Assembly (NCBI GenBank): GCA_903887455.1
Contig: CAISPT010000151.1
Location: 1-34,919, forward strand
Length of the DNA: 34,919 bases
Reading direction: 5' to 3'
Source of the DNA: an uncultured Opitutaceae bacterium
GTDB lineage: Bacteria; Verrucomicrobiota; Verrucomicrobiia; Opitutales; Opitutaceae
In this document: positions 7,207 through 33,784 of the stretch, piece by piece
Numbering within the stretch: the stretch's first letter is position 1
Layout: each line of letters opens with the position of its first letter
The notes under the pieces: model-generated
The model's database searches: none
The model's input: the letters and a program-made list of their open reading frames with translations, nothing else
Told to the model about the DNA's origin: nothing
Position numbers and translations under genes: made by a program

Positions 7207-9897
7207 ATGTTCACGCGAATCCAACTATCGCTCCTTTTAGCGCTGACTTTCCTCCCCGGCCTATTCGCCGCTGATTTCGCCATGAGGGTGACGGACAAGA
7301 ACTACCTCGATACCCAAGGATTCAGCGTATTCCTCTACGACAGCAGGTACCATCCGGTCTTCGTGGACCAAAAGAACACGGCCATGGAGATGATCCTCCA
7401 TGGCCAACGGATTGCCACCAATGGCGATGTGCGCCTGATGCCAACCCCCGAGCAATGGGATCTGGTGGCCACCCTGAAGGGTCGCCACGCTGACAAGGAT
7501 AACAACAGGCTCACCGCGAACCTTGACTTCCCAACCTTCGATCTCAGCTACACCCTGGAGGTGGCCGCCGAACCCGGTGGCGTGAAGGTCAGCATCAACC
7601 TCGACAAGCCGCTGCCTCCCAAATTGGCCGGGCGGGCGGGCTTCAACCTGGAGTTTCTACCCTCGATCTACATGGGCAAGGCCTACCTCGTGGACGGGAC
7701 CCGGGCGGGCCTCTTTCCGAGAACGCCCGAGGACCCGATGGTCAAGGTGCTCCCCTTGCCCGACGAGCCGAAGAAAGCGTATTATCTCGAGGACTGGGAC
7801 AAGGCCAAAGGCTACACCGAGCCCCTGCCGTTTGCCGTCGGCAAGACGATCAGCCTCGGTGTCGACGACCCGCTGGCCAGGATCAGCGTCATTTCGGATA
7901 CGGCGGACCTAATGCTGTTCGACGGGAGGAGCCGCGCTCAGAACGGCTGGTTCGTTTTGCGCTCCCTGATACCCACCGGAAGGACCACGGGCGCCGTTGT
8001 CTGGCACATCAGGCCGGACGTGATACCGAACTGGACCCGGCCGCCGATGATCGCGCACAGCCAAGTCGGCTATGCTCCGGGCTTCTCCAAGGTGGCGGTA
8101 CTCGAGCTCGACCCAAAGTACAACGGGCCGAAGACCGCCAAGGTGCTCCGCCTCATGGAGGATGGCTCCTATAAGCCTGTGTTCGAAGGTCCGATCACGC
8201 CGTCAACTCCCTGGCTCCGGTACGTCTACTCGAAATTCGATTTCACCCCGGTCAATGACCCGGGCCTCTACGTCATCGACTACGCCGGCCAGCGCACGGC
8301 GACCTTTCCCATATCCAAGGACGTTTACGCCCACATCTGGCAGGCCAGCCTCGACCATCACCTCGCCGCGCAGATGGATCACGTTTCGGTCCGCGAGGCC
8401 TACCGCGTGTGGCACGGCCTCTCCCACATGGACGACGGCCGCCTCGCGCCGGTGGTGGGCGAACAATTCGACAACTGGAACCAGGCGACGGCAACCGACG
8501 GGAAGTACAAGGGCGGCGACCATATTCCCGGGATGAACGTGGGCGGCTGGTACGACGCCGGCGACTTCGACCTCGAGGAACCCGCTCAGCTCAGTGTCAT
8601 CCAGAGCCTGGCCCTGGCCTATCGGGAATTCGATCTCACCTACGACGAACTGACGGTCGACGAAGTCGCGCACGAGGTCGAGATGCACCGGCCCGACGGT
8701 GTGCCGGATACGGTGCAGCAGGTGAAACACGGCGCCCTGTATATCCTGGCGCAATTCCACAATATCGGGCACGCGATCCGGGGCACCCACGAGCCGGACC
8801 TACGCCAGTACACGCACCTGGGTGACGGAGCGTCGAAGACCGACGGACGCATCTACGACCCGTCGCTCGGGCCCAACGAGGTGAAAGGCGACTTCTCGGG
8901 CAAGCCGGACGACCGCTGGATCTTTACCTCCAACAACCCGTTCTTCCAGTGGAGTGCCATCGCGGCGCTGGCCGCGGCAGCCGACACGTTGAAAGGCTGG
9001 GACGATCCCTTGGCAAAGGACTGCCTTGAAACGGCGATCCAAGCGTGGAACGACGAAAAGACCCACCCCACAAAAGCCCCGACACGAAAGGGGCCCTTTG
9101 ACATGGAGGACCCGGAAGCCGGCTCAGGGGGAGGCGTCCTCGCCGCTTCGCAGGGTTCGCTGGGCAGACCGAATAGCCGGGGCGCAACGGCTGCAACCGC
9201 TGCTGCGGTGCCCCCCGCTCATCCCGCCGGTGTCGGCAGGGGATTCTTCGGCGTCGGAATCGATTGGCCTGCGGCCCTGGAGCTCACGATCGCGACAAAG
9301 GGCGCGGAGCCCTACAGGTCCCGCCTTAAGGAGTTGTTCCCCCAGGTGATCACGCCTGAGCAAATGGAGTTCCGGGGTTGGACCGCTGTCCGGGCGTTGC
9401 CGTACCTCGACGCGGGAGCAAAGGAGCAACTGCACGAAGCGGTGAAGACCTACATGGCAGCCCTGGACGCGAAGATGGGGGCGACACCGTTCGGCGTTCC
9501 CCCGAGCCTAAGGACCTGGGGCGGATCAGGCGCCGTCGTGGAGATGGCGATCCGAATGTACTTCCTGCACAAGACCTTCCCCGACCTGGTGGGCCCCGAG
9601 TACACCCTGCGCGCCGTGAACTACATCCTCGGCACGCACCCGGTATCCAGCACGTCGTATGTCGCCGGAGTGGGAACGGTCTCAAAGACGAAGACCTACA
9701 GCAACAACCGGGGTGACAACGCCTATATCCCCGGTGCTGTGATTCCCGGATATATCATCATAAAGCCTGATTTCCCCGAGTGCATCGACGATTTCGGATT
9801 TCTCTGGTTTGAGGACGAAGCCGTCGTGGCTGGGTCGGCAAGCTGGGTCGTTGCGGGCAACGCGGCCGACGCGCTAGTAAAAGAGGCAACCCCGTAA
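7207..9897 (+). CDS. secreted glycoside hydrolase family 9 endoglucanase
   Basis: The protein has 896 residues from ATG 7207, which begins directly with a signal peptide (MFTRIQLSLLLALTFLPGLFA). The first 270 residues are beta-rich and not recognised. Residues about 280-370 match the Ig-like domain that precedes many GH9 catalytic domains (MIAHSQVGYAPGFSKVAVLE). The GH9 (alpha/alpha)6 barrel follows, with the DAGD motif at 450-453 (catalytic base aspartates) and a C-terminal acidic cluster E869-D-E871 in GFLWFEDEAVV holding the likely proton donor. The family hydrolyses beta-1,4-glucans by inversion. Odd point: residues about 624-692 are a Gly/Ala/Pro/Ser-rich stretch inside the catalytic domain. 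It converges with the GH43-like gene, with 134 bp between that hold nothing evident. Confidence 0.9.
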   Translation: MFTRIQLSLLLALTFLPGLFAADFAMRVTDKNYLDTQGFSVFLYDSRYHPVFVDQKNTAMEMILHGQRIATNGDVRLMPTPEQWDLVATLKGRHADKDNNRLTANLDFPTFDLSYTLEVAAEPGGVKVSINLDKPLPPKLAGRAGFNLEFLPSIYMGKAYLVDGTRAGLFPRTPEDPMVKVLPLPDEPKKAYYLEDWDKAKGYTEPLPFAVGKTISLGVDDPLARISVISDTADLMLFDGRSRAQNGWFVLRSLIPTGRTTGAVVWHIRPDVIPNWTRPPMIAHSQVGYAPGFSKVAVLELDPKYNGPKTAKVLRLMEDGSYKPVFEGPITPSTPWLRYVYSKFDFTPVNDPGLYVIDYAGQRTATFPISKDVYAHIWQASLDHHLAAQMDHVSVREAYRVWHGLSHMDDGRLAPVVGEQFDNWNQATATDGKYKGGDHIPGMNVGGWYDAGDFDLEEPAQLSVIQSLALAYREFDLTYDELTVDEVAHEVEMHRPDGVPDTVQQVKHGALYILAQFHNIGHAIRGTHEPDLRQYTHLGDGASKTDGRIYDPSLGPNEVKGDFSGKPDDRWIFTSNNPFFQWSAIAALAAAADTLKGWDDPLAKDCLETAIQAWNDEKTHPTKAPTRKGPFDMEDPEAGSGGGVLAASQGSLGRPNSRGATAATAAAVPPAHPAGVGRGFFGVGIDWPAALELTIATKGAEPYRSRLKELFPQVITPEQMEFRGWTAVRALPYLDAGAKEQLHEAVKTYMAALDAKMGATPFGVPPSLRTWGGSGAVVEMAIRMYFLHKTFPDLVGPEYTLRAVNYILGTHPVSSTSYVAGVGTVSKTKTYSNNRGDNAYIPGAVIPGYIIIKPDFPECIDDFGFLWFEDEAVVAGSASWVVAGNAADALVKEATP

Positions 9898-12530: not shown

Positions 12531-12616
12531 TGGTGCCCGAGGCGAGACTCGAACTCGCATGCTGTTAAGGCACAGGCTTCTGAGACCTGCGTGTCTACCA
12601 ATTCCACCACCCGGGC
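12531..12616 (-). tRNA. tRNA-Leu (anticodon CAG)
   Basis: The minus strand reads as an 86-nt class II tRNA with the CCA encoded. The acceptor stem pairs GCCCGGG with CTCGGGC. The D arm holds the AATTGGTAGA core. The anticodon stem CAGGT/GCCTG encloses the loop CTCAGAA, giving anticodon CAG for CUG codons. A long variable arm follows, as expected for leucine, and the T arm is GCGAG-TTCGAGT-CTCGC. Confidence 0.97.
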
Positions 12617-12868: not shown

Positions 12869-15800
12869 ATGCCCTCGTCCGGACGCTCCACCCTGGCCCT
12901 TTTTGCGCTCAGCCTGGCGACCGCTGTCTTTGCCGCCGACCCCCTGCCCCCGGACCTCGCCGCACTCAAGGTCAAGGCCGAGAACGGGAACGCGATCGCA
13001 CAGTACAACCTGGGCCTCGCCTACGCGACGGGGAGCGGAGTGCCGCTGGACCAGGCCGAGGCGTACGTCTGGCTGACCCTGGCGAGCGAGCAGGGAAGCA
13101 CCGGCAAGGACATCGGTGTCCTGGTCTCCGGGATGAGCCCCGAGGTGCTCGCGGAGGGAAAAAGGCGCCTCGAGATGGAGCGCTCCCAGATCGCCGTCCC
13201 AGCGCCCGTCGCCAGCTCGATCACCTTTAACAATACGAGGCGGGAGATCGCCCCCTCGCCGAAGGAGGCTCCGGCCCCCGTGGCGCCAAAGCCTGCGCCG
13301 GAAGCCCAAGCCCCCGCTCCCACTGCCGACCCCGAGGTCGCGCAGCAGAAGGCGAAGATCAAGGAACTCCAGGACAAGGTCGCCCAGGATGCCTCGGTCA
13401 CCCAGCAGCTGACCCGCGAGCTCGACGAGCGGGGCCAGGCCCTCATGCAGGCGCTGGCGCAAATCAACGCCGTCAAAAACCTCCAGACGAGCCAGGATGA
13501 CGCCGCGGAGAAGGAACTCAACTCGACCCGCGCCGCGCTCGAGGCCTCGAAGCTCGCGCTCCAGGACGCCAAGGCGGACGCCGCTGCAAAGCTCGACGCC
13601 CTCCAGAAGAATGCCGACGCAAGCGCGGCCGAGGCGGAGCGCCTGAAGGCCACGGTCGCCCAGGACGAGGCAGCGCTCAAGGCCGCCGGCAGCTCGTCCG
13701 CCAGCACCCAGGCGTCGGTCGCCGACCTTTCGAAGGCCCGCGACGACCTTGCCGCCGCTCTAAAGAAGGCGGAGGCCGACAAGGCAGACCTCGCGACCCG
13801 CGCGGCGGGACTCGAGCAGGATCTCGCAAAGCGAACCGCGGAATCCGACAGGAATTTTAACCAGCTCGCCCAGGACGAGGCGGCGCTCAAGGCCGCGCAG
13901 GCGGCCGCAGCCAGGACCGACGCCCTCGCCGCGGAACTCTCCCAGGCAAAGAACGACCTCGCGGCTGCAACAGCGCAGCTCGCCGAGGCCACAAAGTCAG
14001 CGCAAGCCGCCTCCTCCGCCGCGGCGTCAGCCGCACCGAAGGACCGGCTGGACAGCCTCACTGCCGAGCTCGCGACGACCCGTCAGGCGCTGGCCGAGGC
14101 AAAAGCAGCCGCGATCAAGGAAAAGGAGGCCGAGGTGACCTGGTCCGCCTCACTCGAGAAGGAGCTCGCGGCCCAGACGGCCATGTCCAACGAGCTCAAG
14201 GACAAGCTCGCGGCGGCCAACGAGGCCCTGAAGGCAGCCGGCGACACTGGGGCCGGAGCCCGCAAGATCTCAGCGGACCTGGCAAGCGCCAAGGCTGACC
14301 TTGCCGCGGCGAGGGACCAATTGGTGCAGGCCCAGGCAGCCGAGGATCAATTGACGGCAAAGGTCCAGGCCCAGCAGGCGGCGCTCAAGGAGGCCTCCGG
14401 GCTCGGCCCAAAGGTCGACAAGCTGACGGCGGATCTCGCGGCTAGCCGGAAGGCCGTGGACAGCGCGTCCGAGGCCGTGGCGGCGTCCGAGCAGAAGGCG
14501 GCCCAGGCCTCCGAGAAGCTCGCCGCGGCGGAGCGCGACCTTGAAACGGCGAAGGCCCAGGTTGCCGGCGTACAGAAGGAGCGGGACAGTCTCGCGGCCA
14601 AACTTTCCGTCGACGACGCGGCGCTCAAGTCCGCGGGCGAGACGGGTTCCAAAGCCCAGGCGCTCGCGAACGAGCTTTCCCTGGCAAAGCGGGAGCTCGA
14701 GGCAGCAAAGGTTACCTCCCTTGCTGCTGTGAACGACGCCGCGGCCAAGTCCTCGGCTCTTTCCAAGGCGGAAAGCGACCTCAAGGCCTCGGAAGACAAA
14801 CTGGCCTCGCTCGCCAAGGACCGTGACGCCCTCGCCGCACGACTCGCGGCTGACGAGACCGCGCTCACGGCAGCGACGGGCGACGCTTCAGCGAAGGTCA
14901 AGATGCTCTCCGACCAGCTCGCCGCCGCGCAGAAGGATCTCGAAGCCGAGAAGGCGGCCTCGGAGGCGATCTCGAAGGTCAGTAACGCGAAGGGCCTCGC
15001 TCTGAAGCACATGGCCGGCGACCTAGAATCCGCCCAGGAGTCGCTTGCCGCGGTCCAGAAGGACCGGGACGCGCTCCTGGCAAAGCTCACGTCCGACGAG
15101 GCCGCGCTCAAGGTTGCGGGGGATTCCGGTCCGAAGGTCCAGGAACTCTCGGCGAGCCTGGCCGCGGCGAAGAAGGACCTCGAGGCCCAGAAGGCCTTGA
15201 CCGCTTCGGCGGCGCAGGATGCCTCCGCCAAGGCCGCCGCGTTCACCCAGGCCTCCTCCGAGCTCAAGGCCGCACAGGCCGACCTTGCCGCGGCACAGAA
15301 GGACCACGACTCGCTCATTGCCCGGATCAACGACCGCGAGGCCGCGCTCAAGGCCGCGGGCTCCACCGGCGACAAAGCCGCGGCGCTCGCCGCCAACCTC
15401 GAGGCCGCGCGCGCGGATATCGACTCCCTGCGCACCCAGGCGGCCGCCGCCTCGAAGGACGCCGACGCGAAGGCAGCGGCGCTCGCCAAGGCGACAACTG
15501 ACCTGAAGGACGCCCAGGAAAGGCTCGCATCGACCGTGAAAGAAAAGGACGCCCTCCTGGCCGACCAGGAGTCGGCGCTAAAGACCGCGGGCGCCGCCGG
15601 GGAGCGGGCGGAGGCCCTGGCCCGACAGCTTGAGGCCACACAGAGGGACCTCGCCGCGGCCAAGGCCGCGGAGGAGTCCGCGAGCCGCGACGCGGCCGCG
15701 AAGGCGTCCGCGCTCACGGAGGCCCACAAGGCGGCCGACGCCTCAGGCGCGCAGGTGCTTTCCCTCGAGAAGGACCTGGCTGACCGCACGGCGGAGACCG

Positions 15801-17269
15801 TGGATTTGAAGAACAAGCTCTCGGTCGCCCTTGCCGGGACGCGAGCCTCCGGCGAGAGCGGCGCGCAGGTGCAGGCCGTGAAGGCCGAGCTCGCGCGCGT
15901 CCAGGCTGATTTGGACGACGTGAAGTCCCGGCTCGCCCAGGCGACCGCGGAGGCGGCCGCCGCCAAGGGGGCCGCCCAGACGGCGAACCTCACCAAGGCC
16001 GAGAATACAGTCCTTAAGGCGGAGCTCGCGAAGGCAAAGGCCGACCTCGACTCGACGCGCGGGCAGTTGGCCCAGGCGGCGGCGGAGGCCTCAGCCGCAA
16101 AGTCCGCCGCCGAGACGGCGGGCCAGCTCAAGTCCGAGAACGCCTCTCTTAAGGAGAAGCTCGCTTCGGCAAGCACCTCTCTGCAGTCGGCTGGAGACAC
16201 CGGGACGCAGGTCGAGGCGCTTAAGGCCCAACTGTCCAAGGCGACAGAGGACGCCGCATCTGCCAAGGCCGCCAACCTCGCCCTCTCGGATCGCCTCGCC
16301 AAGGCCGAGGACGCCGAGAAGGCGCTCCAGGCCTCCGTCCAGAAGAATGCGGGAGATGCGGCGGCGAAGGCCAGGGCCCTCTCCTCCGAACTTGAGCGCA
16401 CGAAGGGCGCACTCGACGTGGCCCATGCGGAGCTCGCCCTCGCCAAGAATTCCACGAACGATCGGGTGACTGACGCCCAGAAGGCCGCCGACGCTGCGAA
16501 GGCGGACGCCGCGGCCAAGACCGCGGCCATGGAGCAGCAGCTTTCCGAGGCCAGGGCCCGGGACGAGGCGCTCACCTCGGACCTCGCTTCCGCAAAGAAG
16601 GACCTCGAGTCGGCCCGCCTGGCGCTCAGTGGAACCAAGGAGTCGGCCGCCGGCACGGCGACTGCGCTCGACCAGGCGAAGGCCGAGGGCGAGGCGCTGA
16701 AGGGCCAATTGGCCCAGGCCAAGTCCGACACCGAGTCCCTCCGCGCAAAGCTCGCGGCGGACGAGGAGGCGCTTAAGGGCGCCGGAGATTCGTTCGCAAA
16801 GACCCAGGCCCTTGCCGCGGAGCTCGCGCAGGCGAAGGGCGACCTCGCCGCGACGCAGTCCCAGCTGGCCGATGCGCTGAAACTCGCCTCGACCGCGAAG
16901 CAGCAGGCCGAGGACCACGGCCTCGACCGGGACAGCCTCCAGAAGCAGGTGGCCGACCTCTCGGCGAAGCTCGCGGCCTCGCAGGCCGCGACCGCCTCTC
17001 TCCAGGAGGAGAACACGCGCCTTAGGCGCTCGTCCCCGCTCAGGCCCGCGACGGCGCTCGCGGCGCAGGCCATCGCGGCCGCGGCCCCCACCCCGGTGCC
17101 GACCCCGGTGCCCAGGACCTACACGGTCGCCGACGGCGACACGCTGACAAAGATCTCGCTCCGGTACTACGGCACCTCGTCCAAGTGGATCACGATCTAC
17201 CAGGCGAACCGCGACAAGCTGCCGAACGAGAGCGTCCTCTCGATCGGGACGGTGCTCCGGATCCCGTAG
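12869..17269 (+). CDS. giant secreted coiled-coil protein with Sel1-like N-terminus and C-terminal LysM
   Basis: The protein has 1466 residues. A signal peptide (STLALFALSLATAVFA) is followed by one Sel1/TPR-like segment (AENGNAIAQYNLGLAYATG, residues about 37-75), a Pro/Ala-rich linker (130-160), and about 1200 residues of Ala/Lys/Glu/Asp-rich coiled coil. The rod contains repeats of about 80 residues that start with DEAALKAAG-like motifs. After a Pro-rich hinge (PTPVPTPVPRTY) comes a LysM domain, residues 1416-1466 (YTVADGDTLTKISLRYYG), which should bind peptidoglycan. The product is therefore likely a wall-anchored envelope rod. It looks monocistronic; the next gene is convergent, with four bases between the stops. 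A role in envelope structure or spacing is inference; no homologue with known function is recognised. Confidence 0.85.
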   Translation: MPSSGRSTLALFALSLATAVFAADPLPPDLAALKVKAENGNAIAQYNLGLAYATGSGVPLDQAEAYVWLTLASEQGSTGKDIGVLVSGMSPEVLAEGKRRLEMERSQIAVPAPVASSITFNNTRREIAPSPKEAPAPVAPKPAPEAQAPAPTADPEVAQQKAKIKELQDKVAQDASVTQQLTRELDERGQALMQALAQINAVKNLQTSQDDAAEKELNSTRAALEASKLALQDAKADAAAKLDALQKNADASAAEAERLKATVAQDEAALKAAGSSSASTQASVADLSKARDDLAAALKKAEADKADLATRAAGLEQDLAKRTAESDRNFNQLAQDEAALKAAQAAAARTDALAAELSQAKNDLAAATAQLAEATKSAQAASSAAASAAPKDRLDSLTAELATTRQALAEAKAAAIKEKEAEVTWSASLEKELAAQTAMSNELKDKLAAANEALKAAGDTGAGARKISADLASAKADLAAARDQLVQAQAAEDQLTAKVQAQQAALKEASGLGPKVDKLTADLAASRKAVDSASEAVAASEQKAAQASEKLAAAERDLETAKAQVAGVQKERDSLAAKLSVDDAALKSAGETGSKAQALANELSLAKRELEAAKVTSLAAVNDAAAKSSALSKAESDLKASEDKLASLAKDRDALAARLAADETALTAATGDASAKVKMLSDQLAAAQKDLEAEKAASEAISKVSNAKGLALKHMAGDLESAQESLAAVQKDRDALLAKLTSDEAALKVAGDSGPKVQELSASLAAAKKDLEAQKALTASAAQDASAKAAAFTQASSELKAAQADLAAAQKDHDSLIARINDREAALKAAGSTGDKAAALAANLEAARADIDSLRTQAAAASKDADAKAAALAKATTDLKDAQERLASTVKEKDALLADQESALKTAGAAGERAEALARQLEATQRDLAAAKAAEESASRDAAAKASALTEAHKAADASGAQVLSLEKDLADRTAETVDLKNKLSVALAGTRASGESGAQVQAVKAELARVQADLDDVKSRLAQATAEAAAAKGAAQTANLTKAENTVLKAELAKAKADLDSTRGQLAQAAAEASAAKSAAETAGQLKSENASLKEKLASASTSLQSAGDTGTQVEALKAQLSKATEDAASAKAANLALSDRLAKAEDAEKALQASVQKNAGDAAAKARALSSELERTKGALDVAHAELALAKNSTNDRVTDAQKAADAAKADAAAKTAAMEQQLSEARARDEALTSDLASAKKDLESARLALSGTKESAAGTATALDQAKAEGEALKGQLAQAKSDTESLRAKLAADEEALKGAGDSFAKTQALAAELAQAKGDLAATQSQLADALKLASTAKQQAEDHGLDRDSLQKQVADLSAKLAASQAATASLQEENTRLRRSSPLRPATALAAQAIAAAAPTPVPTPVPRTYTVADGDTLTKISLRYYGTSSKWITIYQANRDKLPNESVLSIGTVLRIP
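14612..15565 (+). repeat. best-preserved 80-residue coiled-coil repeats in the LysM protein gene
   Basis: Four consecutive units begin at codons 582, 662, 743 and 823 (bases 14612, 14852, 15095, 15335), with lengths of 80, 81, 80 and 77 residues. Each begins with a motif such as DDAALKSAGETG or DEAALKVAGDSG and shares ALAxxLxxAxxDL and KDRDALxAxL segments. More diverged copies of the same motif occur on both sides, for example at residues near 264 and 1305. The nucleotide sequences have drifted, so this is an old protein-level duplication. Confidence 0.8.
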
Positions 17270-17273
17270 GCCC

Positions 17274-18035
17274 CTAAGCCGGGGGCCCCGGGAGGAAGTC
17301 GGCGATGTTCGGGATCTCGTGGACCCGGCGGCCGCCGTTCCGGCGCTCGAGGTAGAAGTCCTCCTCGGGCTTCATCGGTGACTCGTCGCCGTCCTCGATC
17401 TCGTCCTCGTCCTCCTCCTCGTCCTCGTCGACCACCCACTCCTGCTCGTCGAAGACGTGCGACATGCGCCGGGCCACGGGGGCCAGCACCAGGGCCGGGT
17501 TCTTCACCTTTCCGTCCTTCACGAACTCGAAGAGGCAGGGGTAGAACTTGTCCTCAAACTTGGCCCTGAAGTCCCCCATCCACTTGTTGGAGACACCGTC
17601 CCTCCGGTTGAGGAGGACGACGTCCGAGTAGAAGATGCAGGCCTCGTACCAGGCGAAGAGCTTGGGGTGGGCCTCCGCGAGCTGGCAGTTCACGATGCAG
17701 AGGACCCGCGCCACCTCGGTCACCCGGTCCGAGAGGAAGGACTTCCATCCCTCGATCTGGTCCACGGGGTTGTGGCGGCCGTCAAAGAGGATGAAGACAT
17801 GGGTGGCGTCCGGGGGGAGCTGGGCGTCCACGGCGTTGTCGGGGCCGAGCGTCCAGCGGAGGAGCGCCGGGAAGGAGGCGTCCCGGGGATCCGGGGCCTC
17901 CTGGCCGGAGAACAGGAACGCGGGCCTGTCGCCCTCGGCGAGGCCCTCGACCAGATCGGACAACACCTCCCTGCGCCCGGAGCCGGCGGCCCCGAGCACC
18001 AGGTAGACCCGGGGTTTGTCGTCCGCGTCGCTCAG
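17274..18035 (-). CDS. P-loop GTPase-like protein of unknown function, probable CTG start
   Basis: From CTG 18035 the product has 253 residues. ATG/GTG choices are poor: GTG 17999 would cut away the first beta strand (PRVYLVLG) of the nucleotide-binding fold. The CTG overlaps the aroC stop as CTGA, the geometry usual for coupled genes. The P-loop GAAGSGRRE lacks the Walker A Lys and Ser/Thr, so nucleotide binding is doubtful. Later segments ([36 protein letters not shown]) look like the switch and base-recognition strands of SIMIBI-class (CobW-like) GTPases. Residues about 205-235 are a long Asp/Glu tail. Function unknown; the assignment to that superfamily is tentative. Confidence 0.6.
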
Positions 18036-19235: not shown

Positions 19236-19274
19236 GGTGGCGCTTTGCCCCCTAATCCGCATTCCCGAATCTGC

Positions 19275-21332
19275 ATGACATTGCGCCTCGCACGCTTGTG
19301 GCTCTTCACCGGGCTCTTGGCCACGGTAACGGGCCTCCGGGCCGACCCCGTTGCATCCCCGAAGCCTGCGGCCGTGGCGCTGAAGCCGGGCGACCCGATG
19401 GTCGACTCCTTCAAGCTCGCCGACGGCGACATCGACTCGGTCTTAAGCGCCCTGGAGATCTACACGGGCCGGACGGTGGTCCGCCCGGGCCAGCTGGCGA
19501 CGGCCAACTATTCCCTCAAGATCACCCGGCCGATCCCGAGGTCGGAGCTCGTGACGGCCTTGGAGACCCTCCTTGAGCTGAACGGGATCTCGGTGACCCC
19601 GATGGGCGACCGGTTCCTTAAGGTGACGAACCTGGGCGGCGCGAAGAGCGAGGCCCCCGAAATGATCATTGGCTCCTCGCTCGACCTGCCGGCGAGCGGC
19701 AAGGTCGCGACCAAGATCTTCGAGCTCACCTTCCTTAGGGTCTCGGAGTTCGTGCCCCAGATACAGACCTTCATGACCCCGGGGATCGGCGGCGGGATCG
19801 TCCAGCTCGAGAAGGCGAACGTCGCCATGGTGACCGACACGGTCGAGAACCTGCAGCGGATCGAGCGGCTTCTCGCCGAGGTCGACAAGCCGAGGCAGGA
19901 GAGCCTGGCGCCCCGGTTCTACGCGCTAAAGAACGGCGCCAAGGCGAGCGACGTCGTGAGCAAGATCCGCTCGATGCTGACCGGCGCCGCCGCCAACCAG
20001 CTCCGCTCCACCACGACCTACACGCCCGACGACCGCACGAACCAGATCATCGTGATCGCCGACCCCAGGGAATACCCCCTCTTCGACGCGATCATCAGCC
20101 AACTGGACATCAAGAGCGACCCGTTCACGCGCATGGAGGTGATCGCCTTGAAGCACGGCGACGCGAAGGACGTCGCCACCCTCCTTTCGAACCTCGTGAG
20201 CGGCCAGAACGCCGCCGCCCAGAAGACCTCAAACCAGTCGGTCCGGCCCGGCCAGATCGTGACCCCGCTTAACCCGCAGAACCCCGCGGCCCCGGCCATC
20301 CAGGCCGCCGCGGCGGTCGCAAGCGAGGCCGTGGGCTCGAGCGAGTTCAGCGGGCTTGTCACCATCCAGCCAGACGAGCGCACGAACTCAATCGTGGTCT
20401 CGGGGACCTTTGACGACATCCGGCTCATCAAGGGGATCGTTGACAAGATCGACGTCCTCCTGGCCCAGGTCTCGATCCAGGTCGTGATCGCCGAGGTTTC
20501 GCTCACCGACTCGGACGTGAGCGGCGTGCAGGCGCTTGGGCTCCAGGTCGGCAAGGCCCCGAACGGGGGAACCTCGATCACGGGCTTCTCGGGTTCCATC
20601 GCTGGCTGGACGGTTGGCGCCTCGCCGGGGGCCTCCGGGCTCACGGGCGTGAACCCGCTCAGTTTCCTCGCCCAGCTCCGCGCAGCCGGGGACCGCCACC
20701 GGGTGAAGATCCTCCAGGCGAACACGATCACGACCACCCACAACAAGGAGGCGAAGCTCACGGTGAGCCAGCAGCAGCCCGTGATCACGGGCTCGACCGC
20801 CGAGCCGATCGCGGCCACGACCTCGACCTCCTTCGCCACGTCATCCCAGGTGACCTACAAGGACATCGGCATCACGCTCAAGGTGACGCCGCTGATCGGA
20901 GACGACGGCAACATCCAGCTGACAATCGACCAGACGGTCGACGACAACCAGGGCAGCACCACGATCGACGGCAACAGCCAGCCGATCATCGGCCACCGCG
21001 AGGCCACCGCCTTCATCAACGTGACGGACGGCCAGATGGCGGTCTTGGGCGGCCTCCAGAGCTCCGGCCACACGACCGACCGCCAGAAGCTGGGGCTCAT
21101 TTACGAGATCCCGATCCTCGGCAACCTGCTCGGCTACCGGAACAACGAGCTCGACCGCACGGAGCTCCTCCTCTTCATCCAGCCGCATGTGATCCGCCCC
21201 GACGAGGCCACGGCCGACACGAGGAAGCAGATCGAGGGAATGGGCAACAAGGAGCAGATCAACGATTACCTGAAGAACCCGGGCAAGATGCCCGACGCGA
21301 AGGATTCGCTGATCGAGAAGCTGAAGAACTAG
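19275..21332 (+). CDS. gspD: type II secretion system secretin GspD
   Basis: GspD is the outer-membrane pore of the T2SS. ATG 19275 begins a signal peptide (LARLWLFTGLLATVTGLRA). The 685-residue protein then has an N0-like domain (residues about 45-115, FKLADGDIDSVLSALEIYTG), ring domains of the N1-N3 type (FYALKNGAKASDVVSKIRSM; VIALKHGDAKDVATLLSNL; QPDERTNSIVVSGTFDDI), and the secretin barrel from about residue 390 (IQVVIAEVSLTDSDVSGVQ) to the conserved end (TDGQMAVLGGL, IPILGNLLGYRNN, LLLFIQPHVI). No lipoprotein Cys is present. gspE starts 22 bp downstream. The distance to aroC and the inverted repeats suggest that its promoter lies at 19200-19270. Confidence 0.93.
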   Translation: MTLRLARLWLFTGLLATVTGLRADPVASPKPAAVALKPGDPMVDSFKLADGDIDSVLSALEIYTGRTVVRPGQLATANYSLKITRPIPRSELVTALETLLELNGISVTPMGDRFLKVTNLGGAKSEAPEMIIGSSLDLPASGKVATKIFELTFLRVSEFVPQIQTFMTPGIGGGIVQLEKANVAMVTDTVENLQRIERLLAEVDKPRQESLAPRFYALKNGAKASDVVSKIRSMLTGAAANQLRSTTTYTPDDRTNQIIVIADPREYPLFDAIISQLDIKSDPFTRMEVIALKHGDAKDVATLLSNLVSGQNAAAQKTSNQSVRPGQIVTPLNPQNPAAPAIQAAAAVASEAVGSSEFSGLVTIQPDERTNSIVVSGTFDDIRLIKGIVDKIDVLLAQVSIQVVIAEVSLTDSDVSGVQALGLQVGKAPNGGTSITGFSGSIAGWTVGASPGASGLTGVNPLSFLAQLRAAGDRHRVKILQANTITTTHNKEAKLTVSQQQPVITGSTAEPIAATTSTSFATSSQVTYKDIGITLKVTPLIGDDGNIQLTIDQTVDDNQGSTTIDGNSQPIIGHREATAFINVTDGQMAVLGGLQSSGHTTDRQKLGLIYEIPILGNLLGYRNNELDRTELLLFIQPHVIRPDEATADTRKQIEGMGNKEQINDYLKNPGKMPDAKDSLIEKLKN

Positions 21333-21354
21333 GGGCCGGGCCCCCCTTGGAGCC

Positions 21355-23073
21355 ATGCCAGTCATTCAGCCGGATTCCCTTCCCGAGGCGATCGCCGCCC
21401 GGCTCTCCGACGAGCAGCGGCAGGCCGTCCTCGGCGCCGCCCGCGGCAGCCGGCTCTCAGTCCTCTGCGCGGCGCTCGGGGTCGACGAGAATTCCGCCCT
21501 TAACCTCGCGGCCGCGGCCGCCGGGCTCAACATTGCGACGAACCTGGAGACCGACCCGGGCGCCCGCGGCCTCCTGCCGGCGCGCCTGGTCCACGACTTC
21601 CAGATTATCCCGATCCGCGTCGGTCCCGCCCCCGCGGAGGACACCGAGGCCACGGCCTCGACGCCGCTCCACCTGGCCTCCGCCTGGCTCCCGGACACCT
21701 CCATGGCCGACTGGCTCAGGACGTTCACGCCCCGGCCGCTCGTGTGGCACTTGGCGGTCCCCGAGCGCGTCCACCAGTTGATCATCGAGAACTTCGGCGT
21801 CGGCTCCGGCGCCCTCGAGGACTCCGACGAGGGCTACGTGGCCCCGGAGGCGCTCCGGGACAACGAGGCCGAGGTCGACGAGGACGCGGCCGTCGTCCGG
21901 TTCGTGACGGACGTCATCACGCAGGCCGTGGACGACCAGGCAACCGACATCCACTTCGAGCCCCAGGAGGGGCAGCTAAGGATCCGCTACCGGGTGGACG
22001 GGCTCCTGGTCCCGGTCTCCGTGCCTGAGAACCTGCTCCGCTTCCAGGACGCCATCATCTCGCGCGTAAAGATCATGGCGCGGCTCAACATCTCGGAGCG
22101 GCGTCTCCCCCAGGACGGAAGGATCAACTTCAAGGCGGCCGGCAACACGCTCGACATCCGCGTCTCGACGATCCCGACAATCTACGCCGAGTCGATCTCG
22201 CTCAGGCTCCTGAACAAGCGGAAGGAAGCCTACACGATGGACCGCCTCGGGATGAGCGCGGAGGAGCAGGACCAGATCAAGCAGGTGCTCGACTACCCGC
22301 ACGGGATCATCCTCGTGACCGGCCCGACGGGCTCGGGCAAGAGCACGTCGCTCAACGCCTTCCTGCGGCAGATCAACTCGACGGACCTGCGCATCATCAC
22401 GATCGAGGACCCGATCGAGTACGAGGTCCCGGGAGTCAACCAGATGCAGGTGCGCGCCGAGATCGGCCTCACCTTCGCAAGCGCGCTCCGCCACGTTCTC
22501 CGGCAGGATCCCGACGTCATCATGGTGGGCGAGATCCGCGACCGGGAGACGGCCGACATCGCGATCCGCGCCTCCCTCACGGGGCATCTGGTGTTCTCGA
22601 CGCTCCACACGAACGACGCCCCGGGCGCCATCACGCGGCTCGTGGACATGGGGATCGAGCCCTTCCTCGTGGCGAGCGCGATCGAGCTCGTGATCGCCCA
22701 GAGGCTCGTGCGCCGGCTCTGCCCGGAGTGCACGCGGCCGGAGCCCGTCTCCCGGGTGAAGCTCCTCGAGTCCCTCGCGATCCTCGGCTGCAACGCCTCC
22801 GAGGCGGAGTCGGTCACCGCGCTCAAGGCTCCCGTCGGCTGCGACCGCTGCCGCGGGACGGGCTACCGGGGCCGGATCGGCCTCTTCGAGATCTTCCGCC
22901 TGAACGAGGAGATGCACACCCAGGTGCTCCACCGGGAGAGCACGCGCACGCTCGCGCAGAGCGCCCGGGCCCACGGCATGAGGACGCTCGGCCAGAGCGG
23001 CTGGGACAAGGTGAAGGCCGGGTTCACGACGCTCGAGGAGGTCCTCCGCGTGATCACGATCTCCGAGAAATAG
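21355..23073 (+). CDS. gspE: type II secretion ATPase GspE
   Basis: GspE is the cytoplasmic ATPase that powers pseudopilus assembly. The 572-residue protein has an N-terminal GspE_N-type domain (residues about 1-150), then the ATPase core with Walker A GPTGSGKST at 323, the Asp box, Walker B DPDVIMVGEIRD near 385 and the His box GHLVFSTLHTNDA. Four cysteines in two pairs (C456/C459 in CPEC, C496/C499 in CDRC) form the zinc-binding insert typical of GspE and PilB. It lies between gspD (22 bp) and gspF (11 bp), a clear operon. The domain order is complete and nothing is missing. Confidence 0.95.
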   Translation: MPVIQPDSLPEAIAARLSDEQRQAVLGAARGSRLSVLCAALGVDENSALNLAAAAAGLNIATNLETDPGARGLLPARLVHDFQIIPIRVGPAPAEDTEATASTPLHLASAWLPDTSMADWLRTFTPRPLVWHLAVPERVHQLIIENFGVGSGALEDSDEGYVAPEALRDNEAEVDEDAAVVRFVTDVITQAVDDQATDIHFEPQEGQLRIRYRVDGLLVPVSVPENLLRFQDAIISRVKIMARLNISERRLPQDGRINFKAAGNTLDIRVSTIPTIYAESISLRLLNKRKEAYTMDRLGMSAEEQDQIKQVLDYPHGIILVTGPTGSGKSTSLNAFLRQINSTDLRIITIEDPIEYEVPGVNQMQVRAEIGLTFASALRHVLRQDPDVIMVGEIRDRETADIAIRASLTGHLVFSTLHTNDAPGAITRLVDMGIEPFLVASAIELVIAQRLVRRLCPECTRPEPVSRVKLLESLAILGCNASEAESVTALKAPVGCDRCRGTGYRGRIGLFEIFRLNEEMHTQVLHRESTRTLAQSARAHGMRTLGQSGWDKVKAGFTTLEEVLRVITISEK

Positions 23074-23084
23074 GGCCCCGCCCG

Positions 23085-24353
23085 ATGCCCCGCTATTCGT
23101 ACAAGGCCCGCGACACGTCCGGGAAGGCCTCCGATGGGGTGATCGACGCCCCCGCGAGGAAGGACGCGCTCAGGCTCCTTTCCGCAAGGGGCCTCTCGAT
23201 CACCTCGGTCTCCGATTTGCCTGGTGCCGCGGCGGCCGGACAAGCCCGGAAGCCGGCGACCCCGGCGCCCGAGGCGGCCCCGAAGGTCGCCGGCGGGAGC
23301 CCCGAGACGACGCCAAAGCGCGCGCAGCGCCTCCCCTTCCTCGAGTCGCTCCACGACCTCACCTCCTCCGGGCTCTCCGCGGGCGAGGCCGTCCGCCTCC
23401 TCTCCGTCCGGATCAAGGAACCGCGGCTGAGGAGCCTCTCCGAGGGCCTCTGGGCCAGGCTCTCCGAGGGCGCCCCGCTCTCGCGGGCCATGGAGGCCTA
23501 CCCGGAGGTCTTCGATCCATCGACCGTGAACCTGATCCGGGCCGGCGAGGCCACGGGTTCCCTGAACGACACCCTGGCGCGCCTGATCGAGATGCTGACC
23601 GAGCAGCGCGAGCTCCGCACGGCGCTCCTCACGGCGATGGCCTACCCGCTCCTGATCGTGGTCGCCTCCTTTGGCGTCGTCCTCTTCTTCCTCTTCTTCC
23701 TGCTGCCCCGGCTCCAGACCCTCCTCGCCTCCCTCGGGGGGAAGATGCCGCTTCCGACCCGGATCCTGGTCGCGCTCGCCAACTTCACGCTCCACTACGG
23801 CGTCTTTGTCGCGATCGCCGGCGCGATCGCCGGGGTGTCCCTCTGGCGGTGGCGCTCGACCGAGGTCGGGCGCGCGCGGAGCGACGCGTGGCTCCTCAAG
23901 CTCCCCGCGGTCGGGCCCTTCATCGTCTCGCAGACGGTCCTCGCCTTCAGCCAGACGCTCGGCGTGCTCCTGCAGAACGGGATCACCACCTCGGATGCCC
24001 TCCGGATGACCGAGCGCCAGATCGAGAACCGCGTGCACCGGGTGGCCTTCGAGGGGGCGATCGAGCGGGTCCTGGAGGGCGAGGCCCTCTCGACAGCGCT
24101 CGGGCGGACCGGGTGCTTCCCGGAGCTTGTCCTCGACCGGCTCTCGGTGGGCGAGAACACCGGAAACGTGGTCCCGAGCCTCCGGGACATCGCGAAGACC
24201 TACCAGAAGCAGATCTCCCGGCAGCTTAACTTCTTCACCAAGGTGATCGCCTCGGTGATCCTGGGCGCCGTCTTCATCTTCGTCGGCTTCATCGCGATCG
24301 CCATGGTGATGGCGGTGCTCCAGGTGAGCTCGAGCTTCAAGGTCGGCGGCTAG
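23085..24353 (+). CDS. gspF: type II secretion inner-membrane platform protein GspF
   Basis: GspF is the polytopic inner-membrane protein on which the ATPase acts. I chose ATG 23085 (422 residues) because it gives the family start MPRYSYKARDTSGK; the longer upstream frame overlaps gspE and is not conserved-looking. Two T2SSF repeats are seen (from LPFLESLHDLTSSGLSAGEA and from VLAFSQTLGVLLQNGI), each followed by hydrophobic helices, including LLIVVASFGVVLFFLFFLLP and IASVILGAVFIFVGFIAIAM. A 50-residue Ala/Pro-rich linker (residues about 46-85) separates the N-terminal piece from the first repeat. It converges on the GH44 gene with three bases between stops. Confidence 0.94.
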   Translation: MPRYSYKARDTSGKASDGVIDAPARKDALRLLSARGLSITSVSDLPGAAAAGQARKPATPAPEAAPKVAGGSPETTPKRAQRLPFLESLHDLTSSGLSAGEAVRLLSVRIKEPRLRSLSEGLWARLSEGAPLSRAMEAYPEVFDPSTVNLIRAGEATGSLNDTLARLIEMLTEQRELRTALLTAMAYPLLIVVASFGVVLFFLFFLLPRLQTLLASLGGKMPLPTRILVALANFTLHYGVFVAIAGAIAGVSLWRWRSTEVGRARSDAWLLKLPAVGPFIVSQTVLAFSQTLGVLLQNGITTSDALRMTERQIENRVHRVAFEGAIERVLEGEALSTALGRTGCFPELVLDRLSVGENTGNVVPSLRDIAKTYQKQISRQLNFFTKVIASVILGAVFIFVGFIAIAMVMAVLQVSSSFKVGG

Positions 24354-31533: not shown

Positions 31534-32697
31534 TCAGGTCTGGGAAGGGGCGGGGGGAGGCTGCGGGATCTCATCATCTTCGAGCAATTCGAGGAGGGTA
31601 AAGGGATAATTGATGCTTTGCGAGGCCGCGGCGGCCGAGGAGGCACTGGTGGCGGTCGAGGAGGGCTGGGAGGTGGCGGTCACGGGCGTCGGCGTGGAGG
31701 GTGACGTCCCGGAGGCGGCGACGGTTGCGTTCACGGCATTGGTCGTGTTGATCGTCGCCCCGCCCTGGGGGGCGAGGACGGCCGACATCCGGTACTGGGA
31801 GCGTCCCTCCCTGACCGTGATCGTGACCCGAAGTGCCGAGATTGTGGTGCCAAACGCCGACGCATTGCCGCCGGCGCCCGCCACGGCGGCGAGCGTCCCC
31901 GCGTTCGCGAACCACTGCTGGCCCTGGTTGGCGTACTGCCCGGCGCCGGAAAGGAAGTCCCTCACGTGCTCCTGCTGGGCCTCCGTGTACTGGCCAAGGG
32001 CCGCCATCACGTCCGGGTTGGCCCCGTTCACGTTCGGCTGCGAGAAGTTGAAGATCGAGACGTCGCCGACGAACCGCCAGAAGAGGGCGTTCGGGAGCCC
32101 GTTCTCGTCGAAGAAGGCGTCGCGAGCGAACGCGACGGCGGAGAGCTCGCTGAAGGCCCGGAGCGGGCGCCCGGGCTCCGCATAGGGGAGCTCCGCGTTC
32201 GAGTAGCCCGGGGTGAGCGAGGTCGAGTAGACGTAGCCCTGCTGCATCCAGCCCATGAGGGCGTCGGCAAGCTTCGCCGCGTCGGCCTGCGGCATCTGGT
32301 AGGCCTCGAAGAGGTTCGTGAGCGTGGTCAGGTCCGCGCGCCTGAGCGGGATCTTCCCGCTCTCGTCCTGGAAGGAGACCTCGACCGTCCTGCCCGCGCT
32401 CGGGCTCCACCCGGCCCACGCGAGCGGGTCCCCCCACCCCTCCGCCGGGCTCCTAAGGCCGTTGTCGGCCTGGCGGAAGTCCTCGAGGACGGCGAGCGTC
32501 ACCTCGAGCGCCGAGAACGCCTCCTGGCGGAGCCGGTGGGCGTCGGACTGGCGGATCTCGACCAGGAGGTCGTTGCCCGCCTTCTCGATGAAGGCCGTGA
32601 GCGCCACGGCCGTGAAGACGAGCGTGACGAGCACCAGGACGATGACCGAGCTGCGGAGCCGGGGGTCCCTCGCGGGAGGTGTCGCGGGCGTCACCAT
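31534..32697 (-). CDS. gspK: minor pseudopilin GspK
   Basis: GspK caps the pseudopilus tip. ATG 32697 (387 residues) overlaps the gspJ stop by seven bases. The N-terminal hydrophobic helix (SSVIVLVLVTLVFTAVALTA) follows a basic leader (PPARDPRLR) but lacks the usual Gly at the cleavage point. GspK normally lacks Glu5, as here. The large domain has the family segments VSFQDESGKIPLRRADLTTL, LADALMGWMQQGYVYS and NVNGANPDVMAAL. A Ser/Thr-rich low-complexity stretch and an acidic-then-proline tail (LEDDEIPQPPPAP) end the protein and are unusual for GspK. Confidence 0.85.
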   Translation of the reverse strand: MVTPATPPARDPRLRSSVIVLVLVTLVFTAVALTAFIEKAGNDLLVEIRQSDAHRLRQEAFSALEVTLAVLEDFRQADNGLRSPAEGWGDPLAWAGWSPSAGRTVEVSFQDESGKIPLRRADLTTLTNLFEAYQMPQADAAKLADALMGWMQQGYVYSTSLTPGYSNAELPYAEPGRPLRAFSELSAVAFARDAFFDENGLPNALFWRFVGDVSIFNFSQPNVNGANPDVMAALGQYTEAQQEHVRDFLSGAGQYANQGQQWFANAGTLAAVAGAGGNASAFGTTISALRVTITVREGRSQYRMSAVLAPQGGATINTTNAVNATVAASGTSPSTPTPVTATSQPSSTATSASSAAAASQSINYPFTLLELLEDDEIPQPPPAPSQT

Positions 32698-33335
32698 GGG
32701 TTGGGGAGCCCCTGCTTCACGACCGGGACCATGATCAGCGCCTCGCGGACCAGGTGCTGGTAGGTGAAGGTGAGCCGGAGGCGCTGCGGGGGGAGCGGGT
32801 TGCCGCTCGTGTCGGTCTTTAGCGCCGTCTCGGTCGTCCACTTGTTGAAGTCGGTGTCGAAGTAGTCGTAGGCGATCGCGGTCACGAGCGGGGAGACGAG
32901 CGTCTCCCGCGGCGGGTCATCCAGGTAGTGGTTCTCGAGGTCCGAGTGCCAGAGCATGTAGAGGCCCTTGCCCCGCTTGACCTGGAGGGAGCAGTACACC
33001 TCGGGCAGCGGGTTCCCCGGCCAGCGCAAGATCCTGCCGCCGGTGAGCTGCATGTACGTGACCAGGTTCTCCTGGCCGCCGGAGGCGGGCTTAACGGGGA
33101 GCGCCCCCACGGGGGTCGCGTTCGGGGAGGCGGACGGCGGCAGGGAGGCCCGCACCACCTCCCGCTCGACATACCGGGTCACCGCGCGCACGTGCTGGTC
33201 GAAGAGCCGCACGTCGGCGTTCTTCCCCCAGAGCTCGCTCATCGAGAAGATGAAGGTGTTGAGCCCCACGAGGACCAGCCCCACGAGCGCCATCGCGAGC
33301 ACGACCTCGATGAGCGTGAAGCCGCGCGCTTTCAT
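32691..33335 (-). CDS. gspJ: minor pseudopilin GspJ
   Basis: The 214-residue protein begins MKARGFTLIEVVLAMALVG, a type IV prepilin leader with Gly before Phe+1 and Glu at +5, to be cut and N-methylated by a prepilin peptidase. ATG 33335 is chosen for this; the longer upstream frame is not coding-like. The rest (REVVRASLPPS, SDLENHYLDDPP, QRLRLTFTYQH) fits a GspJ-type minor pseudopilin in position and length; the precise subunit identity rests on order G-H-I-J-K. The start overlaps the gspI stop by four bases. Confidence 0.85.
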   Translation of the reverse strand: MKARGFTLIEVVLAMALVGLVLVGLNTFIFSMSELWGKNADVRLFDQHVRAVTRYVEREVVRASLPPSASPNATPVGALPVKPASGGQENLVTYMQLTGGRILRWPGNPLPEVYCSLQVKRGKGLYMLWHSDLENHYLDDPPRETLVSPLVTAIAYDYFDTDFNKWTTETALKTDTSGNPLPPQRLRLTFTYQHLVREALIMVPVVKQGLPNPW

Positions 33336-33784
33336 TGGGCCTGCTTTCCCTGGGCGAGCGCGATCCGGTCGGCCGCGTTCTTGCGGAGCGTCGTCCGCTC
33401 GGTGGGGTCGCTCCAGGTGGGCCTTAGCAGCATGAAGGTCTCGGTCGTCGTCTTCGGGGCCGCCGCGCTCGTGTCCGAGATCACGCAGGTGAAGGTGACC
33501 GTGAAGAGGTCGGTCGTCGCCGTGGGCTCGATCTCGGCCGTCCACTTCACGTGGCGGTCGCCGTCGTCAAACTCGGCGCCGTTCACGGCGGTCTGCAGGT
33601 CCGAGATCGCCAGGAGCTGAGAGCGGGCGAAGGCGACCTCGTCGCCGCTCCTGTTCGAGCGCTCGGCGGCCTCGTAGCTGTTGAGGACGTTCAGGTACGC
33701 GGCGCCCATCACCACGGCCGTCAGGCCGAAGATCATGAGGGCCACGAGGACCTCGATCATCGTGAATCCCCTACGTGGTGCCAT
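33332..33784 (-). CDS. gspI: minor pseudopilin GspI
   Basis: The 150-residue protein starts MAPRRGFTMIEVLVALMIFG, a canonical prepilin leader with short basic head, Gly-Phe cleavage site and Glu+5. The body includes SYEAAERSNRSGDEVAFARSQ, a helix continuing the pilin spine, then beta strands. GspI nucleates the tip complex with J and K. It overlaps the end of the gspH frame by 14 bases and the start of gspJ by four, so translation is coupled through the operon. Confidence 0.85.
   Translation of the reverse strand: MAPRRGFTMIEVLVALMIFGLTAVVMGAAYLNVLNSYEAAERSNRSGDEVAFARSQLLAISDLQTAVNGAEFDDGDRHVKWTAEIEPTATTDLFTVTFTCVISDTSAAAPKTTTETFMLLRPTWSDPTERTTLRKNAADRIALAQGKQAQ

Follow-up and report, generated by a model that had tools for sequence, protein, structure and literature searches.

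A predicted wall-bound, hinged coiled-coil protein with a Sel1 head and a C-terminal LysM in Opitutaceae

The described envelope proteins that come closest to the one analyzed here each share part of its plan. SlpA (Omp-alpha) of Deinococcus-Thermus and Thermotogae is exported and carries a wall-binding domain on one end of a long coiled coil. It has an N-terminal SLH domain and a C-terminal beta-barrel or membrane helix, and its coil, which is about 28 nm in D. radiodurans, varies in length between phyla (PMC9388160). The polar organizers FimV and HubP have both a LysM-type domain and a domain of alpha-helical repeats (TPR class), and their middle part is long and variable; the LysM lies on the N-terminal side, in the periplasm, a transmembrane segment follows, and the acidic cytoplasmic part ends in the TPR domain (PMC12918733). 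The Braun lipoprotein, Lpp, is a short alpha-helical coiled-coil lipoprotein that is covalently attached to the wall and sets the width of the periplasm (PMC5736177).

Kbp (YgaU), the BON-LysM protein of E. coli, ends in a single LysM, at or near its last residue. It lacks a signal peptide as well as a Sel1 head and a rod. The Sel1-like repeat (SLR) proteins LpnE, LceB, EsiB (c5321), and AlgK have arrays of many repeats and neither a coiled-coil rod nor a LysM; SLR proteins generally act as modules for protein interaction. Proteins that connect layers of the envelope tend to be constrained in length, and both Lpp and SlpA have been interpreted as spacers.

In a 34,919-nucleotide stretch of DNA from an uncultured Opitutaceae bacterium (the window), we analyzed a gene whose product joins a Sel1 head to a LysM by way of a long coiled coil. 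A limited search of the open literature (LysM with coiled coil, Sel1, or periplasm; LysM in Opitutaceae; envelope coiled coils in Verrucomicrobia), with subscription papers and preprints outside its scope, found no published description of such a protein. This agrees with a sequence-only reading of the locus, which knew of no protein with this plan.

Domain layout and comparison with described proteins

The gene starts with ATG and encodes 1466 amino acids. From N- to C-terminus, the product has a signal peptide, one Sel1 repeat, a proline-rich linker, about 1230 helical residues, another proline-rich linker, and one LysM:

12869-17269, + strand: open reading frame of 1466 amino acids
12869-12934, + strand: signal peptide (residues 1-22), with rule-based cleavage between VFA and AD
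12950-13189, + strand: head domain (residues 28-107), with one Sel1 repeat (42-77) and three more helices
13208-13330, + strand: proline/alanine-rich linker (residues 114-154), predicted to be disordered, with 10 prolines in 40 residues and pLDDT of 37-45
13331-17029, + strand: coiled-coil rod (residues about 155-1387), helices with short breaks between them
14225-15796, + strand: array of 80-residue repeats (residues 453-976, with its core at 505-902; another copy lies at 1223-1300)
17036-17047, + strand: P-x-R-P motif (PLRP, residues 1390-1393), where the rod ends and the second proline-rich linker starts
17120-17266, + strand: LysM domain (residues 1418-1466), reaching the last residue

Both end domains, which the sequence-only reading had placed there, have Pfam matches above the curated cut-offs and are conserved in orthologues. 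Sel1 (PF08238) matches residues 42-77 (E = 3.7e-8, 34.1 bits versus a cut-off of 30.7, profile positions 1-36 of 36), and LysM (PF01476) matches the tail (E = 9e-7, 29.2 bits versus a cut-off of 20.9, profile positions 1-43 of 43).

We predicted the structure of a single chain with AlphaFold2 (AF2), using a 25-sequence alignment. The head is predicted to have five helices (pLDDT about 90-97) and the LysM a beta-alpha-alpha-beta fold (pLDDT about 95), with disorder in the linker from rod to LysM. Foldseek finds that the head resembles the SLR structures LpnE, LceB, and AlgK (probability 1.0, E of 0.005 and above), and a profile of the head also matches solved SLR proteins; those proteins have many repeats, while the head has one canonical repeat. 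It is the conserved module of the family, with 8 invariant columns in an alignment of 19 sequences. Compared to plasmid sequences, the N-terminus matched only generic Sel1 proteins. The P-x-R-P motif is unchanged across all of the 25-sequence alignment and lies within 110 residues of the LysM in 42 of 56 family members.

The N-terminus (MPSSGRSTLALFALSLATAVFA, then AD) resembles a type I signal peptide, so the protein is probably exported. In a hydropathy scan of the whole protein, the signal peptide is the sole membrane-type hydrophobic window (KD > 1.6). There are zero cysteines among the 1466 residues, and hence no lipobox cysteine as in Lpp-like lipoproteins.

The protein shares its long coiled coil with SlpA (Omp-alpha). 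Unlike SlpA, it has its LysM at the C-terminus, a Sel1 head at the N-terminus, and a hinged coil that is several times longer; Pfam finds no SLH domain, and the protein ends in LysM, with no beta-barrel or C-terminal membrane helix to serve as an outer-membrane anchor and no hydrophobic segment past the signal peptide. Unlike FimV and HubP, it lacks a transmembrane segment, its domains are in the reverse order, its middle is an alanine-rich coiled coil that would lie outside the cytoplasm, and there is no match to the C-terminal FimV TPR domain in Pfam or NCBIfam. Its tail hits the NCBIfam model PRK11198 (E = 2.2e-8), but at 34.7 bits, which is far under the cut-off of 134, and it has no BON domain, unlike Kbp. 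Unlike Lpp, it has no lipid anchor, its predicted attachment to the wall is by LysM, and its length is freely variable.

The nearest solved LysMs are those of NlpC/P60-type endopeptidases and Kbp. Some LysMs bind ligands other than peptidoglycan, which counts against the wall-binding reading.

We rejected kinship to SMC or Rad50. The NCBIfam SMC model reaches 53.5 bits, where the cut-off is 567, and matches the coil region only, which indicates generic coiled-coil similarity; there are no ATPase head domains. An antisense open frame of 914 amino acids (window 14347-17091, - strand) probably exists because GC-rich coding leaves few stops.

A coiled-coil rod with predicted joints

We computed composition and periodicity over residues 161-1385. 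The rod is 30% alanine with almost no proline, and its hydrophobic period is 3.49 residues. A seven-state heptad HMM, trained on the rods of the family, scores it about 20-21 standard deviations above shuffles (z about 21), with 18 register breaks. As the sequence-only reading proposed, the rod is genuinely a coiled coil, and prediction gives helix and not disorder.

The same reading took the rod to be built from 80-residue repeats, and this holds for part of it. Autocorrelation along the rod peaks at a lag of 80 (0.316 versus a shuffle mean of -0.15, SD 0.06). The core (505-902) is a single unbroken array of five units with 34-45% pairwise identity, each 80 residues long except for two (81 and 77). 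A repeat HMM finds 8 copies in the rod, including weaker ones outside the core, while 0 of 50 heptad-shuffled controls had a match; the remaining rod is heptad coil with no detectable 80-residue unit. In each of four congeneric orthologues (L054-L057), the HMM finds 11-12 copies, so orthologues do differ in repeat number, and in other genera it finds 0-2. These counts show that the 80-residue unit is real and essentially confined to the genus. The copies are old: at the DNA level they are spaced by ~240 nt and are just 60-76% identical, and we rejected a recent expansion.

AF2 predicts the rod as successive helices (pLDDT mostly 60-85, lower in about 1190-1265), and the low global pTM (0.32-0.33) is expected for a chain of joints. 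Helices break at 273-276, 388-390, 458-462, 511-512, 589-593, and 670 in the first half of the rod, and at 750-754, 831-834, 995-997, 1108-1111, 1305-1308, and 1350-1353 in the second half, mostly at AGxxG or similar glycine motifs. Independently, the heptad model breaks register at 466, 512, 591, 672, 752, 838, 991, 1110, and 1315. The two sets of breaks recur about every 80 residues and mark the same predicted joints. The predicted hinges include:

13685-13696, + strand: AGSS (residues 273-276), AF2 break
14240-14254, + strand: GDTGA (residues 458-462), AF2 break, register break at 466
14633-14647, + strand: AGETG (residues 589-593), AF2 break, register break at 591
15116-15130, + strand: AGDSG (residues 750-754), AF2 break, register break at 752
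15359-15370, + strand: GSTG (residues 831-834), AF2 break, register break at 838
15851-15859, + strand: GES (residues 995-997), AF2 break, register break at 991
16190-16201, + strand: AGDT (residues 1108-1111), AF2 break, register break at 1110
16781-16792, + strand: AGDS (residues 1305-1308), AF2 break, register break at 1315

The predicted unit would be 11 heptads plus 3 residues with a glycine joint, and its helix would measure about 11 nm. In a straight line, the ~1233 helical residues would reach roughly 180 nm, which is likely an upper bound only, given about a dozen predicted breaks. The sequence-only reading noted that the rod, if one continuous helix, would far exceed the width of a normal periplasm. 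This is fair for a straight helix, but because hinges segment the rod, one continuous helix is unlikely, and we rejected a rigid one on the coinciding AF2 and register breaks.

The rod might span the periplasm as a connector or spacer, similar to SlpA (Omp-alpha), with LysM on the wall and the Sel1 head docked on an outer-membrane protein. Coiled coils do join a wall-binding domain to the outer membrane in Deinococcus-Thermus and Thermotogae (PMC9388160), and SLR folds occur in some scaffolds of the outer membrane, AlgK among them. However, the window protein has no outer-membrane barrel, membrane helix, or lipobox; its rod, which could measure as much as about 180 nm if straight, would far exceed the ~28 nm of the SlpA coil; and the rod is hinged and varies in length several-fold across the family. 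We consider a connector unlikely.

The family, its lengths, and selection

We defined the family by a signal peptide, the conserved Sel1 head, a coiled-coil rod, and a C-terminal LysM that ends the protein, as in the window. Strong matches to the head profile were found in 103 of 200 Opitutaceae genomes, so the gene is missing from about half of those sampled. At a strict threshold, there were no matches outside the Opitutaceae in samples of 177 genomes from the order and 288 from the phylum. The family is widespread in Opitutaceae and apparently undescribed.

We surveyed the family on 80 named contigs, all from Opitutaceae, Opitutae, or Verrucomicrobia MAGs and isolates. Including the window protein, 57 proteins are complete to the C-terminal LysM, and 56 of these have a rod (522-2068 amino acids in total length). 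The exception (L088, 7929-8429, + strand) is a 167-residue protein, in frame, with a signal peptide and Sel1 head joined to a LysM; it may be a natural version or an assembly collapse. Rod periodicity is 3.39-3.58 in every family member where it was measurable. By the same rule, 77 of 81 N-termini resemble signal peptides, and one has a lipobox-like motif. Most open reading frames that lack LysM run into a contig end, are short tandem paralogues, or have a stop or frameshift with LysM continuing beyond it (one or two are harder to classify). The complete orthologues keep both LysM and signal peptide, and the losses that would have spoken against the original description were not seen.

Other proteins put different heads on a rod and LysM tail of the same kind. 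A type with six Sel1 repeats and a long coil is encoded at L158:1573-7362 (-) (1929 amino acids) and L159:1477-7209 (-) (1910 amino acids), and the protein encoded at L160:2866-10512 (-) likewise ends in a LysM, behind a long coil and several Sel1 repeats. Across these loci, the lengths are about 1900-2550 amino acids. One congener of the window genome (G012) has a 2549-residue Sel1-coil-LysM protein and lacks the single-Sel1 type. These parallel types, with six Sel1 repeats or with no Sel1 head, are why the design looks modular, with head, rod, and wall anchor as its parts.

Several side observations concern these relatives. The window's own genome encodes a putative headless relative (L162:1427-2296 (-), contig C332), with 290 amino acids, a signal peptide, a short coil, a PTRP motif, a LysM, and no Sel1. 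Within the genus, the multi-Sel1 type was found in G012 and, as a partial copy at a contig end, in G011. Both lack the single-Sel1 type, and the five genomes with the single-Sel1 type had no comparably strong match to the multi-Sel1 type. In one clade (L095, L098, L100, L101, and L103, around 8000-8800), a ~230-residue Sel1-plus-coil gene without LysM is directly upstream of the long gene; its product is possibly a partner subunit. A conserved coil motif, [AV][LV]RS[YF], is found in many other genera, typically 70-230 residues before LysM (for example, at residue 1546 of L061), and is absent from the window's genus.

We estimated dN/dS from three close species pairs. It was 0.08-0.18 for the head and 0.04-0.17 for LysM, versus 0.24-0.40 for the rod. 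These ratios indicate strong purifying selection on head and LysM and weaker selection on the rod, which would be maintained, but loosely. The shuffles, the orthologues, and dN/dS together rule out a chance or low-complexity artefact.

Length is loosely constrained. For example, the proteins from L111 and L116 share 97% identity in their first 100 residues and 90% over the alignment, yet one has 1212 amino acids and the other 1030, a net difference of 182 rod residues, or about 27 nm if straight. The sequence-only reading suggested that the protein might measure the envelope. If repeat number set a distance, then core repeats of near-constant length (80 residues, or 11 heptads plus 3) and repeat counts that differ between congeners would fit. 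But the difference between L111 and L116, the range of 522-2068 amino acids across the family, and the rodless form contradict a ruler, and hinges would make length a poor measure. Conserved ends together with an unconserved length also argue against it, and we consider it highly improbable.

Drift of rod sequence and length in close relatives also counts against a periplasmic filament, since regular packing in a polymer is expected to resist it, and glycine hinges lower stiffness. Coils that bundle side by side at the wall, as a cytoskeleton-like polymer, would influence cell shape or envelope stiffness. The very long heptad coil, its regular segments, and a wall anchor at one end point that way, and long coiled-coil-rich proteins can form filaments; on balance, we think that a filament is quite unlikely.

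We also rejected a link to motility, as the presence of flagellin is independent of the rod gene: among the 200 genomes, 56 have both, 47 have the rod gene only, 57 have flagellin only, and 40 have neither (P = 0.57, Fisher exact test).

Genomic neighborhood and proposed role

The nearest neighbors of the gene are syntenic, and we assign them no functional part:

12531-12616, - strand: tRNA-Leu(CAG), upstream neighbor, found by ARAGORN
17274-17999, - strand: convergent gene for a 241-residue protein without a Pfam family

In the genus, the gene order is tRNA-Leu, rod gene, 241-residue protein, aroC, and gspDEF. The gene for the 241-residue protein is a conserved neighbor of the rod gene in the genus and occurs without it in other species, and the rod gene has no neighbor that is common to other genera. 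We rejected a functional link to type II secretion or to aroC because the synteny is confined to the genus.

The type II secretion genes lie in two divergent blocks (window 19245-24353, + strand, and 31534-33545, - strand), with gspD, gspE, and gspF as well as a gspK-like gene and a pseudopilin. Between the blocks are genes for a GH44/Ig-domain protein and an ApbE protein, and a GH9 gene is further upstream. This is likely a polysaccharide-degrading secretion region.

In the genus, the rod gene is two genes from gspD, in a syntenic block, as might be expected for a released or surface protein that is exported via the adjacent type II system and uses its LysM to bind extracellular glycans, such as chitin or the walls of other bacteria. 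There are known examples of secreted LysM proteins. The type II neighborhood is not retained in other genera, though, and a single C-terminal LysM with a long coil is unlike known effectors, so we consider release to be very unlikely.

The gene is dispensable: it is absent from about half of the Opitutaceae sampled, one congener has an empty site, and another has a remnant. At the empty site (G012, L152:3566-3718), tRNA-Leu is about 150 bp from the gene for the 241-residue protein. In the other congener (G006, L150:7561-8673 (-)), the upstream intergenic sequence is fused to the last ~300 residues of the rod protein, so that this 5'-deleted remnant lacks the start, the head, and most of the rod. 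It may be a real deletion or an assembly error.

Of the roles that we considered, a scaffold or tether, the former already suggested by the sequence-only reading, remains the best interpretation. We put it at slightly better than an even chance that the protein acts in the periplasm as a hinged tether or scaffold, bound to the wall and presenting a Sel1 (SLR) adaptor head. The protein would be exported to the periplasm, where the C-terminal LysM would grip peptidoglycan. Pairing of the coiled coils would give at least a dimer, and two or more LysMs would give avidity for the wall. The Sel1 head would recruit an envelope protein as its partner, or hold it in place. The rod, in which each 80-residue segment measures about 11 nm, would lie along the wall or fold inside the periplasm, and it would provide reach, not a fixed distance.

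Several results support a tether or scaffold. The protein has a signal peptide, no further membrane segment, and no cysteine or lipobox. The same plan is found in the 56 rod-bearing members and in the rodless one. Head and LysM are constrained, the rod is laxer, and rod length shifts greatly between close relatives. AF2 is confident of the head and the LysM, and it breaks the helical rod mostly at glycine motifs, with matching breaks in register. The LysM most resembles Kbp and LysMs that are known to bind the wall. Against this interpretation, no conserved neighbor outside the genus points to a partner, the gene is dispensable, and the global pTM is low.

More broadly, Opitutaceae may have a class of hinged, wall-bound tethers of their own, whose heads can be exchanged (none, a single Sel1, or six) on a rod and LysM tail of one kind. 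Each would show a different adaptor through the periplasm at tens of nm or more, with length only weakly constrained. This would be a periplasmic reach-extender architecture that has not been described elsewhere; we offer it as a tentative proposal that has some chance of being right.

Overall, this is a widespread, conserved family of Verrucomicrobiota proteins whose ends are constrained and whose rod, nominally several periplasm widths long, shifts by tens of nm between sister species. It varies naturally in length and head type and is absent from some genomes, a clean series that makes it a clear case for testing whether periplasmic coiled coils of such length serve for reach, as scaffolds, or as filaments, among bacteria whose envelope has been little studied.
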